Shown piece after piece: positions 1 to 34,251 of a stretch of 51,017 nt of DNA. The translations under genes were made by a program, and so were the position numbers. The stretch is from an uncultured Acidimicrobiales bacterium. GTDB lineage: Bacteria; Actinomycetota; Acidimicrobiia; Acidimicrobiales; SZUA-35. The DNA lies in the NCBI GenBank assembly GCA_938021675.1, contig CALIFY010000057.1, positions 1 to 51,017 of the forward strand, in the 5' to 3' direction. The notes under the pieces are model-generated. The model had not been told where the DNA came from. It worked only from the letters and a program-made list of their open reading frames with translations, and made no database searches. The stretch's first letter is position 1. Every line of letters begins with the position of its first letter.

Positions 1-855
1 CCCGAGATATTCGCCGTCGACTTGAAACGGGAATGGGCGACGACCGAGCAACGTCGCCCCGGTGACGTCGTCGAGTCGGCGGGTCGTTGGCCCATCGGTG
101 AAGCCCGAAGACCGGCGGAGTGCGGTGAGAACAGCCGGCACCATGTGGCGCAGCGATAAAGACGTCAACACCACGATCGAGAGCGGGGTATCGAGGGTTG
201 CGGCCGGAGCGAGGATGAGTGGCCGGCTGCCAAGGTAGGTATACGGATTGCAATTAAGGGTGATGGCCAATTGAGCGTCTTCGACGGTCCGTCCGTCGTC
301 GGTGGTGATCGAGAACCACGGCACCCGTCGATCTACTCGGCGTAGCCAGGTCTCGAACGTGCTGGAGACGAACAGAGGGTGGCCGAGATACCTTTTCAGC
401 GGACCTCGCTGCTCGACCTGACCGACGACGGCGGCGTCGAAGCCGGCCCCGACGTTAAAGAGGAAGGCCCGGTCGTTCGCCATCCCGACCCCGGCCGACA
501 CGATCGATTTCGATGCCAGTGCTTCGAGCATGACGGTCGTAGCGGCCAACGGCTCGTTCGGGTAACCCAAGGCGCGGGCAAAGACGTTTGTCGATCCGCC
601 GGGGAGGCCAACCACCGCGGTGTCGGTTCCGAGCAAACCATTGGCCACTTCGTTGATTGTGCCGTCACCGCCAAGGGCGATGACCACCTCGGCCCCAGCC
701 CGCCCCGCACCGTGGGCCAGGCGGATCGCATGTCCGCTCTTGGTCGTCTCGATAACGGTGAGTTCGTGGAGTTCGGCGACCGCCTTCTGGATGACGACGC
801 GGGTCCGGTGAGTCACCGCGGAAGCGAATGGATTGACGATCAACGTAAGCCGCAC
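1..855 (-). CDS. Diacylglycerol/lipid kinase family protein (3' end cut by window edge)
   Basis: About 284 residues are visible; the gene runs leftward and its C-terminal end lies outside the window. The N-terminus reads VRLTLIVNPFAS, followed by the nucleotide-binding motif GGDGTINEVANG and GLPGGSTNVFARALG, the signature of the DAGK catalytic domain (YegS/BmrU/DgkB family). These enzymes use ATP to phosphorylate diacylglycerol or related lipids at the inner membrane face. The C-terminal part (TYLGSRPLILAP, then FQVDGEYLG at the edge) fits the second beta-rich domain. The GTG start at 855 is preferred because a -10-like CAGAAT lies 6 nt upstream, matching the leaderless layout seen elsewhere here. 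It is divergent from etfB and shares the 88-bp intergenic region containing a palindrome. The exact lipid substrate cannot be read from sequence. Confidence 0.9.
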   Translation of the reverse strand, partial: MRLTLIVNPFASAVTHRTRVVIQKAVAELHELTVIETTKSGHAIRLAHGAGRAGAEVVIALGGDGTINEVANGLLGTDTAVVGLPGGSTNVFARALGYPNEPLAATTVMLEALASKSIVSAGVGMANDRAFLFNVGAGFDAAVVGQVEQRGPLKRYLGHPLFVSSTFETWLRRVDRRVPWFSITTDDGRTVEDAQLAITLNCNPYTYLGSRPLILAPAATLDTPLSIVVLTSLSLRHMVPAVLTALRRSSGFTDGPTTRRLDDVTGATLLGRRPFPFQVDGEYLG

Positions 856-5261: not shown

Positions 5262-5688
5262 GCTCCGCATGGTTGAAGTGCCGGTGTGAAGTGCCTGTGT
5301 GAAGTCACGTAGTGCGGTGTGAAGTGATGACCGAGCCGGCACTTTATGGGGTTTTTATGTCGGATGTCTCCTTGGTGCTGGAGCGGTGGTGTGAAACATG
5401 GCACTGCACGAAGCATTACGGACCTGTGTCGGTGTCGTCTCAGGTCTCTGACCTGGGGGAACGGTGGTTCCTGGATGTCAAGTATCGATTTGGACCGAGC
5501 GGCATTCTGAGTCAGCGCGTGGGATGCGGCCCGTTAGTGGTCTACGGTGCACTCTTCGGCGCAGGCGGATCGCAACAGGCGGGCGATCCAATACCCATTT
5601 GCAGTTTCACAAGTTGTTCTCAGTTTGGAGAGTGCAAATGGCTGATGGCTTCAATTGTCGCGAATGCAACCGGGAGGAGACACCCACA
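5262..5688 (+). other. 427-bp non-coding region with structured 5' leader
   Basis: No convincing gene is present. The 5' part has the direct repeats. The 3' part contains two stems: GGATCGC/GCGATCC (5567-5573 with 5583-5589, 9-nt loop) and CCATTTGCA/TGCAAATGG (5595-5603 with 5633-5641), the second enclosing a small inner hairpin (TCTC 5618-5621 with GAGA 5628-5631). They lie directly upstream of the ribosome-binding site GGGAGGAGA of the surface-protein gene, so they should be in its mRNA leader. I do not recognise a known riboswitch class. Confidence 0.5.
5284..5326 (+). repeat. Cluster of direct GTGTGAAGT repeats
   Basis: GTGTGAAGTG at 5284-5293 and 5317-5326 and GTGTGAAGTC at 5297-5306, with partial copies at 5271-5280 (GGTTGAAGTG) and near 5389-5396 (GTGTGAAA). 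All are in the same orientation at spacings of 13 and 20 bp, just after the peptidase gene. They could be protein-binding direct repeats for the downstream surface-protein gene or a simple local duplication. Confidence 0.4.
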
Positions 5689-6078
5689 ATGAATGGAACA
5701 ACCACGATCTCGCTTCGGCACAAGCCGCTGTTGCTGCCGGTGATGGCCGCTTTGGCCTTTGCCTTCATGCTTGCCATGGCAGCAGCTGCAAGTGCAGATG
5801 CTACGAGTACTACTGCAATGGAAGAAGAAGAGACAACCACGACCGCAGCAGCGGAAGAGGAAGAAACAACCACAACCGCAGCAGAAGACGCTGAGGAAGA
5901 AGAGACAACCACCACCGAGGCTGACGCCGACGATGGTGCAGCCCCTGAGGGTGGCGCCGACACCGGTGCCGGTGGCACGAGCTCGAACACCACGCTCATC
6001 GCCTCAGCTCTCGCAGTATTTGGTGCGATGGCCCTTGGTGGCGGCTCGATAGCTGCTCGCCGTCGGACAACTCACTAA
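5689..6078 (+). CDS. Thr/Glu-rich sortase-anchored surface protein
   Basis: This 129-residue protein has an N-terminal signal peptide (basic start, hydrophobic stretch about 13-33, then SADATS), a low-complexity body with three EEETTTT-type repeats (about 45-77), and a cell-wall sorting signal: GADTG (89-93), a hydrophobic segment (about 102-121) and the basic tail ARRR. In sortase substrates the order is LPxTG, TM helix, positive tail; here the pentapeptide position is occupied by GADTG, so the motif is atypical. The next gene is a sortase. A strong ribosome-binding site (GGGAGGAGA) fixes the ATG. It is likely to be a highly expressed wall or spacer protein whose repetitive body may be O-glycosylated on Thr; this last point is inference. 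Confidence 0.75.
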   Translation: MNGTTTISLRHKPLLLPVMAALAFAFMLAMAAAASADATSTTAMEEEETTTTAAAEEEETTTTAAEDAEEEETTTTEADADDGAAPEGGADTGAGGTSSNTTLIASALAVFGAMALGGGSIAARRRTTH

Positions 6079-29207: not shown

Positions 29208-31619
29208 CTACCAGCGCAACGATCCGACGGCCAGTATGCGTCGTTTGGTTGTGCTGCTTGCGCCATCACGACGGGTCGGTCGGATGGTGAGCGCTTCGAG
29301 CGCGTTGTCGGGTTTCGTCGGTGCAGCCGTCTGTCCGACAACACACATGGTGCGGTCTGCTCTGCCGATCCAGGTCAGATCGATTCGCCGCTCATCCTTG
29401 AACTTGGTGATCCTGACCCCGCCGGTACCCCGGCCCTTCGTCGGAATCTCATCGACCAACGTGGCCTTTGCCGTGCCCCGGTCGGTGATCGTCACGACGA
29501 TGGCATCGGTTGCCGCCACGCCGGCGCCTACCACCCGGGCCTTGCCCCGAAGCTTGATGCCCGCCACCCCTTTGGCCGTGGCGCTTTGGATGCTTATCGT
29601 CGAGGCCGGGGTTCGTAACGCCTGCGCATCGGAGGTTACGAGGACGACATCTTCCTTCTCGGAGACGGGAACGGCGGCGACGAGGCGGTCACCCTGGCCG
29701 AGCTTTATGGCCACGCGGCCCGACCGAAGATCGGCGAGCACCGACCGCTCGACTCGCTTGACTAGCCCGGCGGCCGTAACCAACAGAAGGGGGTCGCCGG
29801 ACGGGCCAACGATGGTGATCACCGAGTCACCCCGGTCGGCACCGAATACTTCTTCCATAGCCCGACCTCGACTTCGACCGCCGACCTCGGGGATATCGGA
29901 GGCGGTGACCCGGAGTAACTTTCCGAGGGCGGTTAGGGCCATCACCGGTTGTTGGAGCGTGGTAACCACCACGTCGGCGATGACGTCGTGACGAGATGGG
30001 GTATAGCTCTTTGAGCTTCCCTGCGGCTCGCGGCCAAGCAACCCGGAGGCGCTCCTGCTCACCACGCAGGGGTCGTCGACAATGTCGGCCACGACCTGTT
30101 CTTCGAGTTCGGCCAAATCGGGGATCTCATCGCCACCGACGATCTTGGTTCGCCGGTCGTATCCGTACTTTTCGACGATCTCTCCCAACTCGCTGAGAAC
30201 GATCGTCCGCTGCCGCTGTTCTGAGCCGAGGATTTTCTGGAGACCAGCGATGGTGATCTCCAGTTCAGCTTTCTCGGCCACCAGCTCCTCGTAAGCCAGG
30301 GCGGTGAGACGGCGGAGCCGCAAATCGAGCACGTACTCAGCCTGGATTTGGGTCAGCGTGAGCCGTTCCATCAACTTTTCTCTGGCATCGGCATAGTTTG
30401 CTGCCGATCGGATGATGGCCACGACTTCATCGATGTTGTCGATGGCGATGAGTAGCCCTTCGACAAGGTGGAGCCGTTCCTCGGCTTTACGGAGCCGGTA
30501 CTGCGTGCGGCGGATTACGACGTCGAGCCGATGTTCGACGTAGTGCCGGCACAGGTCGTACAACCCGAGGGTGGTGGGCACACCGTCGACCAGTACGACG
30601 TTGTTGATACCGAACGTTTCCTCGAGGGGGGTCAGCCTGTAGAGCTTTTCAAGTAAGAGCTCAGGGTTGATTCCGGTCTTGCATTCGATGACCAGCTTTA
30701 AACCCGACGTGCGGTCCGACAGGTTCTTTATGTCGGAGATACCTCGGATCTTGTCGGCATTGATGAGGTTCTTGACCTTGCTAATGACGCGCTCGGGACC
30801 GACAAGATACGGCAGCTCGGTGATCTCCAACCCTTTCCTTGCCCTCGTGACGTTTACCACCGTGGCCTTGGCGCGGATTCGGATCGTGCCCCGGCCGGAC
30901 TCGTACGCCTCGCGGATGCCGTCGTCGACGATGATGCCACCGGACGGGAAATCGGGACCCGGGACCTTAGCCATCAGCTCATCGATCGTCGGCTTCGGTC
31001 GGCGTTTGGTCATCACCAACTTGATGGCTTCGTAGATCTCGCCCAAGTTGTGCGTCGGCATGTTGGTAGCCATGCCAACCGCGATACCGGAGGTGCCGTT
31101 GACCAACAGATTCGGGAGCAGTCCTGGCAGGTATGCCGGCTCGGTGCTCTCGCCGTCATAGGTGGGGCGGAACTCGACCGTTTCTTCTTCGATTTCGGCC
31201 AGCAGATCGATAGCCGCCGGGGTGAGCTTGCACTCGGTGTAGCGGTAGGCGGCGGGTGGGTCGTCGAGGCTGCCGAAGTTTCCCTGGGGGTCGATGAGGG
31301 TAATCGGTCTTGCGAAATCTTGCCCTAGGCGTACCAGCGTGTCGTAGATGGCGCTATCGCCGTGAGGGTGAAAGTTTGCCATCACATCGCCGACCACATG
31401 GGCACATTTGCGGTGTGGTCTGTCTGGGTAGAGCCGCATTTCCCGCATCGAATACAGGATTCGCCGCTGGACCGGTTTGAGACCGTCGCGGACGTCGGGG
31501 ATGGCCCGGGAGGTAATGACCGACAGTGAATAAGCGAGGAACGACTCGCCGAGCTCCTCATCGACGGGAACGTCGACCACGTCCCGTGCGAAGGGTAGGA
31601 GTTCGCCTTGTGTTGCCAT
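29208..31619 (-). CDS. parC: DNA topoisomerase IV / gyrase subunit A
   Basis: This 803-residue protein is the breakage-reunion subunit: [21 protein letters not shown] (about 40-60), the helix region [20 protein letters not shown] (74-93) with Ser89 and Asp93 at the usual quinolone-contact positions, and AAYRYTE with catalytic Tyr127. The C-terminal part (about 500-800) is a beta-pinwheel repeat domain ([34 protein letters not shown]), without an obvious canonical GyrA box, which favours ParC. Start ATG at 31619 follows AAGGTGA. It precedes parE with 5 nt between them. The order parC-parE is the reverse of the usual Bacillus arrangement. It decatenates daughter chromosomes and relaxes supercoils. 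Confidence 0.93.
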
Positions 31620-31976
31620 CGACCGTCACCTTCTCTTTCGTCTCGCTCGTTCGAATTCGCTCGGCCGGTCTCGTGCCGATGTTCTTCACGTAGTGTGCCG
31701 GTTTGGGTCGTCGACCCGGTCCCGCGTTCGTCTGCCGTCACGCCGTTTTGTTGGGTGAACACTCGTTCACTCGGGTTGCTACCGTAGCCGTCACCGGCCG
31801 GCGCCAACACAGATCATTGCAAGATCCGGAGTGCAACTGGTGGCAATCACCACGGAACTGGCCGATTGGTGCACAACCGTTACCATGAACCCGCAGAGCG
31901 ATACATCCCTGATGGTCGAACGTCTCCCGCCGCTTGGTGGACGGGTGCGGCGAGACAAAAGGCGCCCGATTCGGTC
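31620..31976. other. Non-coding spacer upstream of parC
   Basis: About 360 bp with no credible gene. It should hold the parC promoter on the minus strand. The only clear structure is the inverted repeat at 31755-31770. Confidence 0.4.
31755..31770. promoter_or_regulatory. LexA-like inverted repeat upstream of parC
   Basis: GTGAACACTCGTTCAC: the GAAC-N4-GTTC core matches the actinobacterial/Gram-positive SOS box (CGAAC-N4-GTTCG) except for T/A in place of C/G flanks. It is 136 bp upstream of the parC start. One site only and no other member of an SOS regulon is near, so this is tentative. Confidence 0.3.
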
Positions 31977-32005
31977 TTGTTCAATCCGGATTACTGTCCT
32001 AGTCT
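31977..32005 (+). promoter_or_regulatory. Sigma70-type promoter of an unassigned transcript
   Basis: TTGTTC (31977-31982), a 17-bp spacer, and TAGTCT (32000-32005), with a T-run after it. Expected start of transcription is about 32013. Spacing is ideal. Confidence 0.5.
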
Positions 32006-32012
32006 CTTTTTT

Positions 32013-32281
32013 GTAGGAGGAAATTAGTGCACGGCCCCGAGGTCGTGGCACCAGATTGTGAGCGAAGCGCTCGCACACTCGGGAGATGCCACCCGTCGAA
32101 ACCCGAGTTTGTACGATCAGCGATCTGTCACCGAACGACGGCGGGTACGAACGGCATTCGTTTCCCAGGTCATCTGCGTCTCAGAGAGGTGGTCACTGGG
32201 TGTTGCGGCGGTATGCCAGCGTGTGCTCGGTGACATGTGGAAACCGCCTCGGTCGGCGACTCACCCGCCGAAGGCGGTTTC
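32013..32281 (+). ncRNA. Candidate structured non-coding RNA (about 270 nt) or leader RNA
   Basis: A promoter at 31977-32005 and a very strong hairpin at 32239-32280 delimit a transcript of about 270 nt. Its 5' part folds into successive stems: 32027-32051 (GTGC-ACGGCC with GGTCGT-G-GCAC), 32057-32077 (GAGCG/CGCTC with flanking TGT/ACA), and CTCGGG/CCCGAG (32078-32083 with 32102-32107). The RNA begins with GUAGGAGGAAA. An alternative is a 68-codon ORF from the GTG at 32027 (stop 32233), which has a perfectly placed AGGAGG, but its third positions are less GC-rich than the neighbouring genes and its product is Cys/Arg-rich and unlike any family I know. I do not match it to tmRNA, SRP RNA, RNase P RNA or a known riboswitch. 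Confidence 0.4.
32239..32280 (+). terminator. Strong hairpin terminator
   Basis: GAAACCGCCT (32239-32248) pairs perfectly with AGGCGGTTTC (32271-32280); inside it TCGGCG (32252-32257) pairs with CGCCGA (32265-32270) around a 7-nt loop. There is no U-tract. It lies 48 bp before the AAA+ gene, between the candidate RNA and that gene's own promoter. Confidence 0.65.
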
Positions 32282-32316
32282 TGCGCGCCTATGGCCCTTC
32301 CAACTCTGTTGTGCCG

Positions 32317-32322
32317 TAGTCT
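32317..32322 (+). promoter_or_regulatory. -10 box of leaderless AAA+ gene
   Basis: TAGTCT, 6 nt (TGAGCG), then GTG (32329), no Shine-Dalgarno. Confidence 0.5.
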
Positions 32323-32328
32323 TGAGCG

Positions 32329-33312
32329 GTGCCAACCGCCGAGGAGTTCCGCAAGCGAATGCTCGAAGCGACCGGTGCGGCGCGTTCCGCGGTCCGCTCA
32401 GCGGCCGCAGATCGTCGGCTCGACAGTCGAATCCGTGAACTTCCTGGTCCGCTGGCAAACCGCACAAGACCGTTGGACCAGATACAGGCCGACCTCGACC
32501 GGCTGGTCGGCCTTGAGACCGTCAAGGAACAGGTCAGAACCCAGATCGCTTTCCTTCAGATCCAAGCCCGCCGTCAAGAGTATGGACTCAACGAGGTGCC
32601 CACCAGTCAGCACCTCGTATTCCTCGGGAACCCGGGTACGGGAAAGACGACCGTCGCTCGCCTTCTGGCCGAGATGTATTCATCGATCGGACTGCTCCGT
32701 AAGGGGCATCTCGTCGAGGTAGACCGAGCTGGGCTCGTCGGTCAGTACGTCGGACACACGGCGACCAAGACAAACCGTGCCGTGAAGCGGGCCCTCGATG
32801 GGGTGCTGTTCATCGATGAAGCGTACGCCCTCTCGCCCGAAGGTATCGGCCGAAATGACTTTGGCGCCGAGGCCATCGAGACGTTATTGAAGCGAATGGA
32901 AGACCACCGGGATCGGCTCGTAGTTATCGTGGCCGGCTACCCCCGTTTGATGGAGCGGTTCTTGCAATCGAACCCCGGTCTTCGATCTCGTTTTGCTCGG
33001 GAGATCGAATTCCCTGACTACACCGCGGCGGAACTCATCGACATCTTTTTGTCGATGGTCGATGAAGCCGACTATCGCCTCGAAACCGACGGCGACATGG
33101 TGGTCTCGGAATTGTTGAAAGACGTTAAACGGGCACCTGGGTTTGGCAATGCCAGGTTTGCTCGAACGCTGTTCGAACAAGCTATCAATCGACAGGCGCT
33201 TCGGTTGGCCGGTAACGGTGCCATCGATCATCTCGACCAACAGACGGTGTCGGTTATCGCCTCCGACGATCTTTGTGCAGCGGCCTCTCTATTGGCGAAA
33301 CAGCAGCACTAG
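32329..33312 (+). CDS. CbbX/SpoVK-type AAA+ ATPase
   Basis: This 327-residue protein has a short helical N-terminus, then [21 protein letters not shown], Walker [12 protein letters not shown] (99-108), Walker [12 protein letters not shown] (160-170) and the arginine-finger region [17 protein letters not shown]. This is the CbbX clade, which includes the rubisco activase CbbX, SpoVK and the C-terminal ATPase of EccA. No cbb, sporulation or type VII secretion genes are in the window, so the client is unknown. The GTG start is set by TAGTCT 6 nt upstream. The protein is about the length of CbbX. It is flanked on both sides by non-coding DNA with strong hairpins. Confidence 0.9.
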
Positions 33313-33351
33313 CGGTCGTTCGGATCGAGCCGTCGTAACGCTGACTTAGGT

Positions 33352-33561
33352 CCGTCGCTGAGCTGCGGCCGAGTTGAGCGACGGCGCACCTGCTCGCTGA
33401 CGTCCTCCACCCGTGGGGGGAAGGGGAGGGGGCTGGAGGACGCCAACGAGCCAGGGCTCTGACGCCATGGGTCAGCACACCGTGAGGCATGCCGATCCGT
33501 GGCGAATGAGAGCACAGGTAGAAAAGCCACCGCCTTAGCCGACGCAGACGCCGGCTAAGGC
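33352..33561. other. Multi-hairpin non-coding element, strand undetermined
   Basis: Four stems in 210 bp: P1 CCGTCGCT (33352-33359) with AGCGACGG (33377-33384); P2, an extended stem with CCTG-CTCG, internal loop CTGA/CCAA and CGTCCTCCA (33401-33409) pairing with TGGAGGACG (33434-33442) and CGAG-C-CAGG (to 33455); P3 CTGAC/GTCAG (33459-33475); and P4, a 10-bp stem (33532-33561). The P2 loop (33410-33433) is nearly all G on the plus strand (runs of 6, 4 and 5) and C on the minus strand. This resembles the C-rich loops of actinobacterial 6C RNA in part, but only one such loop is present. No ORF here looks real. Confidence 0.45.
33532..33561. terminator. Hairpin terminator, possibly bidirectional
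   Basis: GCCTTAGCCG (33532-33541) pairs perfectly with CGGCTAAGGC (33552-33561), 10-nt loop. On the minus strand it is followed after a few bases by TTTTCT, so it fits as the terminator of the RHH gene ending at 33698; on the plus strand it could end the preceding structured RNA or the AAA+ transcript. Confidence 0.6.
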
Positions 33562-33697
33562 CGATTGGTGGGCAGGACTTCCCCGGACGTACCGGAGCCG
33601 CCCTGTGGTTTCCAACGATTACTTCTCAGAGGGAATGCGAGATCGAATCCGATCCGCCACCGCATCGGCGGTAGCGGATCGGCGACCTCGACCGACG

Positions 33698-33934
33698 TTA
33701 CCGCCGGCGGCGACGCCGTTGGGCGTCGATTTTTCGAGCGGACTTCACCACGGTGTTTAACCGTTGACCAAGTTGCTCGTGGCTTAAGGCAGCGTCGAGG
33801 TTCAGTTCCGGTGCAAGCGCTTCAAGAATCGCGCTTACGCTGACACCCTGCTCTGCGGCGAATCCATGCCAATGGTCATGAGCGTCATCGCTCACATAGG
33901 CATGGAGGGCTTTACGACCATTATCATCAGACAT
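33698..33934 (-). CDS. Small ribbon-helix-helix-like protein with Arg-rich tail
   Basis: This 78-residue protein has KALHAYVSDDAHDHWHGFAA then EQGVSVSAILEALAPEL, a beta-strand plus two-helix pattern like Arc/ParG-type ribbon-helix-helix proteins that bind DNA as dimers, and a polyarginine C-terminus (RRRRRR). ATG at 33934 is preceded by AAAGG about 11 nt upstream. The frame is open further upstream but the extension has no family-like character. It is a lone gene with no toxin beside it. Target DNA unknown; a nucleoid or autoregulatory role is possible. Confidence 0.65.
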   Translation of the reverse strand: MSDDNGRKALHAYVSDDAHDHWHGFAAEQGVSVSAILEALAPELNLDAALSHEQLGQRLNTVVKSARKIDAQRRRRRR

Positions 33935-34251
33935 CAAATGGTTACCTTTGTTTCTCAGTGCGGCGGTTTCTGGTGTCACCCGGTTCAAGAACACAATCCT
34001 TGGACTACGAGCCGACGTAGTCACCCACGTCGATTCACAGTTGGTTCGGAAGCGGCGGTGCTGCATGCTTTCGTTCCGTGTGACTTCCAGCGCTCAGGAC
34101 CCTAGCGGTGTCCTGGTTCGATCTCAAGACCCATTGTTGAGCAATATTCTGCAGTCCATCTGCTCGATTGCTTCTCGATGCACAAGGGCGGTCGGGACGG
34201 CGACCAAATAGGCAGCGATCAGCCACCAAATTTCCTGCACCTAGCCGGCGT
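33935..34251. other. 317-bp intergenic region without a gene
   Basis: Upstream region of the minus-strand RHH gene and downstream end of the glutaredoxin gene. AT content is slightly higher than around it (for example GAGCAATATTCTGC). Apart from a short AGGAC/GTCCT hairpin near 34096-34114, I see no clear feature. Confidence 0.35.

Follow-up and report, generated by a model that had tools for sequence, protein, structure and literature searches.

The described systems closest to the locus we report here come from other actinobacteria. In C. glutamicum ~97% of mapped starts are reported to have a TAnnnT motif, and the leaderless share of mRNAs is given as 33% (PMC3890552); over half of this organism's sRNAs are said to seem species-specific (PMC4046766). 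In mycobacteria, I-shaped terminators that lack a U tract are described as the predominant intrinsic terminators and as lying near stop codons, although intrinsic terminators are described there as scarce and Rho as dominant (PMC12288462). The need for a U tract is itself disputed; titles cited by the same paper fall on both sides, and one of them says that the mycobacterial polymerase requires it (PMC12288462). The unit that we describe, from an uncultured Acidimicrobiales bacterium, resembles the sRNA set reported for C. glutamicum in being intergenic, in having a TAnnnT-type promoter, and in having no Rfam family and no relatives that we found; it differs in that the C. glutamicum sRNAs were seen by RNA-seq (PMC4046766) whereas the unit is known from sequence alone, and in that a well-placed AGGAGG and start codon suggest that it is translated.

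The window analysed here is a stretch of 51,017 nt that makes up one contig of a 4.4-Mb genome in 99 contigs. Within it the unit lies between a minus-strand gene (29208-31619), which from its sequence we take to be gyrA, and a plus-strand gene (32329-33312) for an AAA+ ATPase whose product contains an AAA core (PF00004) and an AAA lid 6 (PF17866) in Pfam and is presumably of the CbxX/CfxQ type. The nearest relatives of the AAA+ protein among 80 named loci are from metagenome-assembled Acidimicrobiales, and no relative was found in viral contigs. The elements of the unit, all on the plus strand, follow one another in a set order. A promoter-like sequence of the actinobacterial -10 type TAnnnT spans 31977-32005, with TTGTTC at 31977-31982, a 17-nt spacer and TAGTCT at 32000-32005. 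A Shine-Dalgarno-like AGGAGG at 32015-32020, 6 nt upstream of a GTG codon, is followed by an open frame of 68 codons that runs from this GTG (32027) to a TGA at 32231-32233, the translation of which contains six Cys residues. Three successive stems are predicted at 32027-32051, 32057-32075 and 32077-32108. Six bases past the stop codon begins a terminator-like hairpin (32240-32281) with a perfect 10-bp stem formed by the arms GAAACCGCCT and AGGCGGTTTC and a 22-nt loop in which an inner 6-bp helix is predicted; its 3' tail is TGCGCGCC, and 47 nt separate its end from the GTG of the AAA+ gene. The promoter sequence, the AGGAGG with its frame, the three stems and the 10+6-bp terminal stem had each been picked out in a sequence-only reading of this DNA, and each is indeed present and, where it is a stem, folds as described, with the proviso that in the case of the promoter this confirms a pattern and not an activity.

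As sequence patterns, these elements have the layout of a small gene: a promoter, a spaced Shine-Dalgarno sequence, a start codon, and a stop codon ahead of a terminator-like hairpin. The position of the frame between the Shine-Dalgarno sequence and the hairpin favours such a layout. Our preferred reading, which we hold tentatively and with somewhat less than even confidence, is that the locus is a small transcription unit, orphan and specific to its lineage, that contains a translatable frame and whose product would be either the peptide or the RNA. Driven by the TTGTTC-17-TAGTCT promoter, transcription would begin at ~32012; the AGGAGG would recruit ribosomes to make an orphan peptide of 68 residues (GTG 32027 to TGA 32231-32233); and the U-less hairpin would end the transcript at ~32281, 47 nt short of the AAA+ start codon. 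Since such a transcript would end before the AAA+ start, the AAA+ gene would stay under its own promoter. It is from these elements and their spacing that we infer transcription, translation and termination, together with any function that the peptide or the RNA might have.

How much weight the elements can bear depends on how often they arise by chance. We shuffled the 466-nt part of the spacer at 31857-32322 4000 times with dinucleotide composition kept. The pattern TTGnnn-16..18-TAnnnT alone appeared in 475 of the 4000 shuffles, and each strand of the 51-kb window has 3 instances of it; a 10-bp hairpin appeared in 53 of 4000. Promoter and hairpin appeared together in only 3 of 4000 shuffles, and promoter, AGGAGG and start in none (this last combination occurs once in the window, both strands counted), but the patterns were drawn up after the sequence had been seen and these figures therefore overstate the case. 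Further, a stricter sigma-70 scan of 31600-32700 found no promoter, and a U-tract terminator scan of the same interval found no terminator. These results bear on a rather unlikely but serious alternative, namely that the region is neutral spacer, made up of inserted or decayed DNA, in which the promoter, the AGGAGG and the hairpin are there by chance. The frequency of the single patterns in shuffled sequence fits this alternative, as do the lack of conservation in every search that we describe below, the equal structure of the reverse strand and a base composition like that of the surroundings (G+C 0.55-0.64 in 120-nt windows). The rarity of the signals in combination speaks against it, as does the fact that a hairpin of this sort is missing from 10 related spacers. 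The same rarity, and the correct order and spacing of the elements, argue for the small transcription unit; the commonness of the promoter pattern on its own, the two strict scans and the post hoc choice of patterns count against it.

Structure is unevenly distributed along the unit. The three-stem region (32012-32110, 99 nt) folds with a z of -2.6, and 2 of 200 shuffles were equally stable; the terminal hairpin (32236-32285) has a z of -5.9, with none of 200 shuffles equally stable, and a hairpin this strong placed six bases past the stop codon is in keeping with a small transcription unit. The 136 nt in between (32105-32240) fold no more stably than their shuffles (z +0.56, 139 of 200 shuffles equally stable), and the whole 276 nt of the unit reach a z of -2.1, a value that the reverse strand matches. 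In a ranking of 849 120-nt windows along the 51 kb, the one that holds the hairpin (32221-32340) stands at 11, whereas the other four that lie wholly or mostly over the unit rank 88, 174, 378 and 764. It is possible, though we consider it unlikely, that the unit specifies a non-coding sRNA of ~270 nt in which the GTG frame is accidental and the stems are the product and work through base pairing or through binding a protein. The three adjacent stems and the terminal hairpin would suit an sRNA, as would a frame with non-native codon usage and no protein family match. An sRNA would, however, have no need of a well-placed Shine-Dalgarno sequence and start codon, and the middle part that folds no better than its shuffles, the modest whole-unit z with its equal on the reverse strand, the lack of an Rfam match at the cut-off and the lack of a structural relative of the three stems in 11 other genomes of the genus all weigh on the other side.

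The Rfam result agrees with the earlier judgement that no known RNA class is represented: no match reached the gathering score anywhere in the window, a search of 31620-32420 returned two matches far below the cut-off (E 2.3 and 7.1), and seven of the 10 related loci described below likewise gave no match. The unit recalls what we take to be the form of Ms1 and other 6S-like actinobacterial RNAs, as a stand-alone structured RNA of roughly 300 nt, but it differs from them in that no Rfam family matched at the gathering score, with no match to RNAs of this sort even at E up to 10, and in that its three stems were not found elsewhere in the genus. When a model was built from the one sequence of the three stems, its only match among 12 genomes of the genus was the source itself. 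With filters off, the same model gave, apart from the source, eight matches at E < 1 in 11 loci, none of them in a gyrA/AAA+ spacer; we rejected these as chance, the best of them (E 0.034, locus L012, 2988-3067) lying inside gyrA.

We find that the codon usage of the 68-codon frame is not that of native genes. With a codon table made from 23 genes of the window, the frame scored -0.26 against 0.30 +/- 0.12 for native windows (1st percentile -0.01), which come from the same genes that trained the table, and thus lies close to the scores of windows read in the wrong frame (-0.11 +/- 0.22). Across seven entries, which stand for six open frames within or close to the unit since one was scored twice, scores ranged from -0.26 to +0.06, and the best 33-codon window starting within 31920-32250 on either strand reached +0.14; as all of these fall below the 0.30 of genes, we rejected coding in any frame on this measure. 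Codon usage speaks against an old native gene, and not against a young or foreign one. Protein families gave no further help. The interval 31620-32328 holds 23 stop-to-stop peptides of at least 20 residues, of which ten were scanned against each library (NCBIfam, PHROGs and Pfam), with the 68-residue peptide scanned from its GTG and further ORF forms also scanned against Pfam, and the 68-residue frame matched none of the three. Low-scoring matches of other peptides, which we treated as chance, were to PRK05601.1 (NCBIfam, E 0.041, 12.8 bits against a cut-off of 550), TIGR00524 (NCBIfam, E 0.083, 12 bits against 185.85), PHROG 19510 (E 0.013, a 42-residue reverse frame), PHROG 15900 (E 0.35), and the Pfam families TSP_1 (E 0.16-0.19) and ARTD15_N (E 0.2). 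The non-native codon usage and the lack of a family match both detract from the reading of the unit as one with a translated product.

We examined 27 other loci of the family with strong AAA+ matches (L006-L032). The divergent gyrA/AAA+ order is found in 10 of them (L006-L014 and L017), nine from the same genus and one from another genus of the family; in the remaining 17 no gyrA lies within the 1.5 kb examined, one of these being cut by a contig end. Two of the 11 other genomes of the genus (G002 and G008) have only weaker AAA+ matches, which are probably paralogous. The spacers of the 10 relatives measure 270, 276, 316, 331, 331, 344, 347, 355, 412 and 443 nt, as compared with 711 nt in the window. 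The promoter pattern is missing from the plus strand of all 10 (in L013 it occurs on the minus strand), and none has a perfect stem of at least 8 bp that closes a loop of 3-30 nt. A terminator is not required between divergent genes, and the longer spacer, with a hairpin and a promoter pattern that the related spacers lack, argues for a separate small transcription unit. That the promoter-to-hairpin unit is separate from the AAA+ gene, as had been proposed, thus holds as a description of anatomy: the 10 related loci have shorter spacers and do without the unit.

Most of the remaining spacer sequence aligns poorly among these loci, but two elements that flank the unit are conserved. Next to gyrA, at 31812-31843 on the minus strand, lies an element that has its full pattern in 10 of 11 loci, the window among them, and is partial in L007; it reads GATnATGGC-N18-GGTGG on the plus strand (GATCATTGC in the window) and CCACC-N18-GCCATnATC on the minus strand (GCAATGATC in the window), and is likely to be a promoter or operator of gyrA. 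On the other side, outside the unit, is the -10 sequence TAGTCT (32317-32322, plus strand); all 11 loci have a TAnnnT 6-8 nt upstream of the AAA+ GTG, which bears out the earlier suggestion that the AAA+ gene has a leaderless promoter of its own, and the gene appears to be leaderless. In the window 486 nt lie between the gyrA-side element and the AAA+ gene; the corresponding distance is ~61-191 nt in those nine relatives whose element shows the full pattern. Given the longer spacer and the conserved flanking elements, the unit occupies DNA that is missing in these relatives, and by this comparison the extra DNA amounts to ~300-400 nt between two conserved control elements.

The conserved TAnnnT also bears on whether the unit could serve the AAA+ gene as a second, distal promoter with an attenuator-type leader, past whose hairpin polymerase would occasionally read. 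The two are on the same strand, the hairpin ends just 47 nt before the AAA+ GTG and has no U tract, and in C. glutamicum transcripts that end <100 nt before a gene are reported to have been classed as mRNA leaders (PMC4046766). Such an arrangement nevertheless strikes us as distinctly improbable, given that the AAA+ gene has its own leaderless promoter in 11 of 11 loci, that 10 relatives manage without the extra DNA, and that a leaderless start would have to be served from within a long leader.

In all of the sequence collections that we searched the unit is, as far as sequence comparison can tell, an orphan; it was seen only in its own genome, where its DNA has no second match. Against 60 relatives there were two short DNA matches, of 26 and 34 nt. 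Among 396 other genomes of the order 18 matched at E <= 0.01, over spans of 22-44 nt, which is background level since an equally long control spacer (33320-33655) matched in 42 of 396; this, too, is what neutral spacer would give. The best short match (34 nt, 91%, in genome G309, E 2.5e-5 for one genome of 397) lies in an open stretch of 408 codons, and as a second blastn gave no extension we did not accept it as the trace of a decayed gene. The 68-residue frame found protein-level matches at E <= 0.01 in 14 of 297 other genomes, where ~3 are expected and no control was run, with a best E of 2e-4 and partial alignments at 31-47% identity; a 100-residue frame matched in 13 of 297 (best E 1.3e-4, likewise against ~3 expected and with no control). 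Matches of both frames are partial, some have internal stops, and viral contigs gave none. We found no convincing homologue of the 68-codon frame, and no conservation of it as a protein, which also tells against a translated unit. With neither stems nor frame found conserved, the first half of the two-part outcome that the sequence-only reading had named as refuting it holds. We rejected a repeat or mobile element as well: the unit DNA matches its own genome once, as does the exact hairpin stem pattern, there was no DNA match in plasmid and phage records, and two exact pieces of the unit were not found in viral contigs. Of the repeats within 31620-33700, a 13-nt direct pair (92%) brackets the unit at 31940-31952 and 32370-32382; it was not accepted as a target duplication because its second copy lies inside the AAA+ gene. 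The ends of an insertion cannot be defined since the flanks have diverged.

We note that the terminal hairpin, with a stem that runs into TGCGCGCC and no U tract, is not a canonical intrinsic terminator; on its predicted fold it fits the shape of an I-shaped one. It resembles the mycobacterial I-shaped terminators in being GC-rich, in having no U tail and in lying 6 nt past a stop codon, and differs in that it comes from another actinobacterial group and that its terminator role is putative (PMC12288462). Within 300 nt downstream of the AAA+ stop codon, the best perfect stem has at least 9 bp in 6 of 27 loci, the window included, with no T tract after the stem in any of the six, and 18 of 27 have no perfect stem of at least 8 bp. 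Hairpins that lack a U tract thus occur at gene ends among these loci but are not general there; the six loci lend support to the small transcription unit and the 18 detract from it. The reported scarcity of intrinsic terminators in mycobacteria, the dominance of Rho and the cited title that requires a U tract also detract from it, while the published TAnnnT starts, species-specific sRNAs and U-less terminators of actinobacteria favour it.

With many C. glutamicum sRNAs described as apparently species-specific (PMC4046766), an orphan small unit would be ordinary for the phylum, and by this analogy the unit, if transcribed, would probably be a small transcript of an ordinary kind, specific to its species. 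A bolder version, that it is a newly arisen lineage-specific gene whose transcript is a structured RNA and serves also as the message for a 68-residue six-Cys peptide, captured in the gyrA/AAA+ control region and tied to the regulation of either gene, seems to us very improbable. The unit opens no long-standing question. If transcribed, it would add to the known species-specific small transcripts, and would do so among uncultured actinobacteria on which our literature search found no small-RNA study (the single match concerned paddy-soil metatranscriptomes). None of the papers among the matches listed dealt with this locus. The unit would then also offer a clean example of how a spacer can gain a small unit with both flanking control elements conserved.

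Lastly, we made some observations elsewhere in the window. Downstream of the AAA+ gene a convergent gene for a small protein (33698-34066, minus strand) is 76-85% identical at the DNA level over ~270-300 nt in seven related genomes, and the spacer between the two holds three perfect stems of 9-10 bp (33401-33442, 33532-33561 and 33649-33682), none with a T tract after it. The lowest folding z in the scan of the window (-5.5) falls at 5821-5940, in a Glu/Thr/Ala-rich part of an open frame at 5464-6078.
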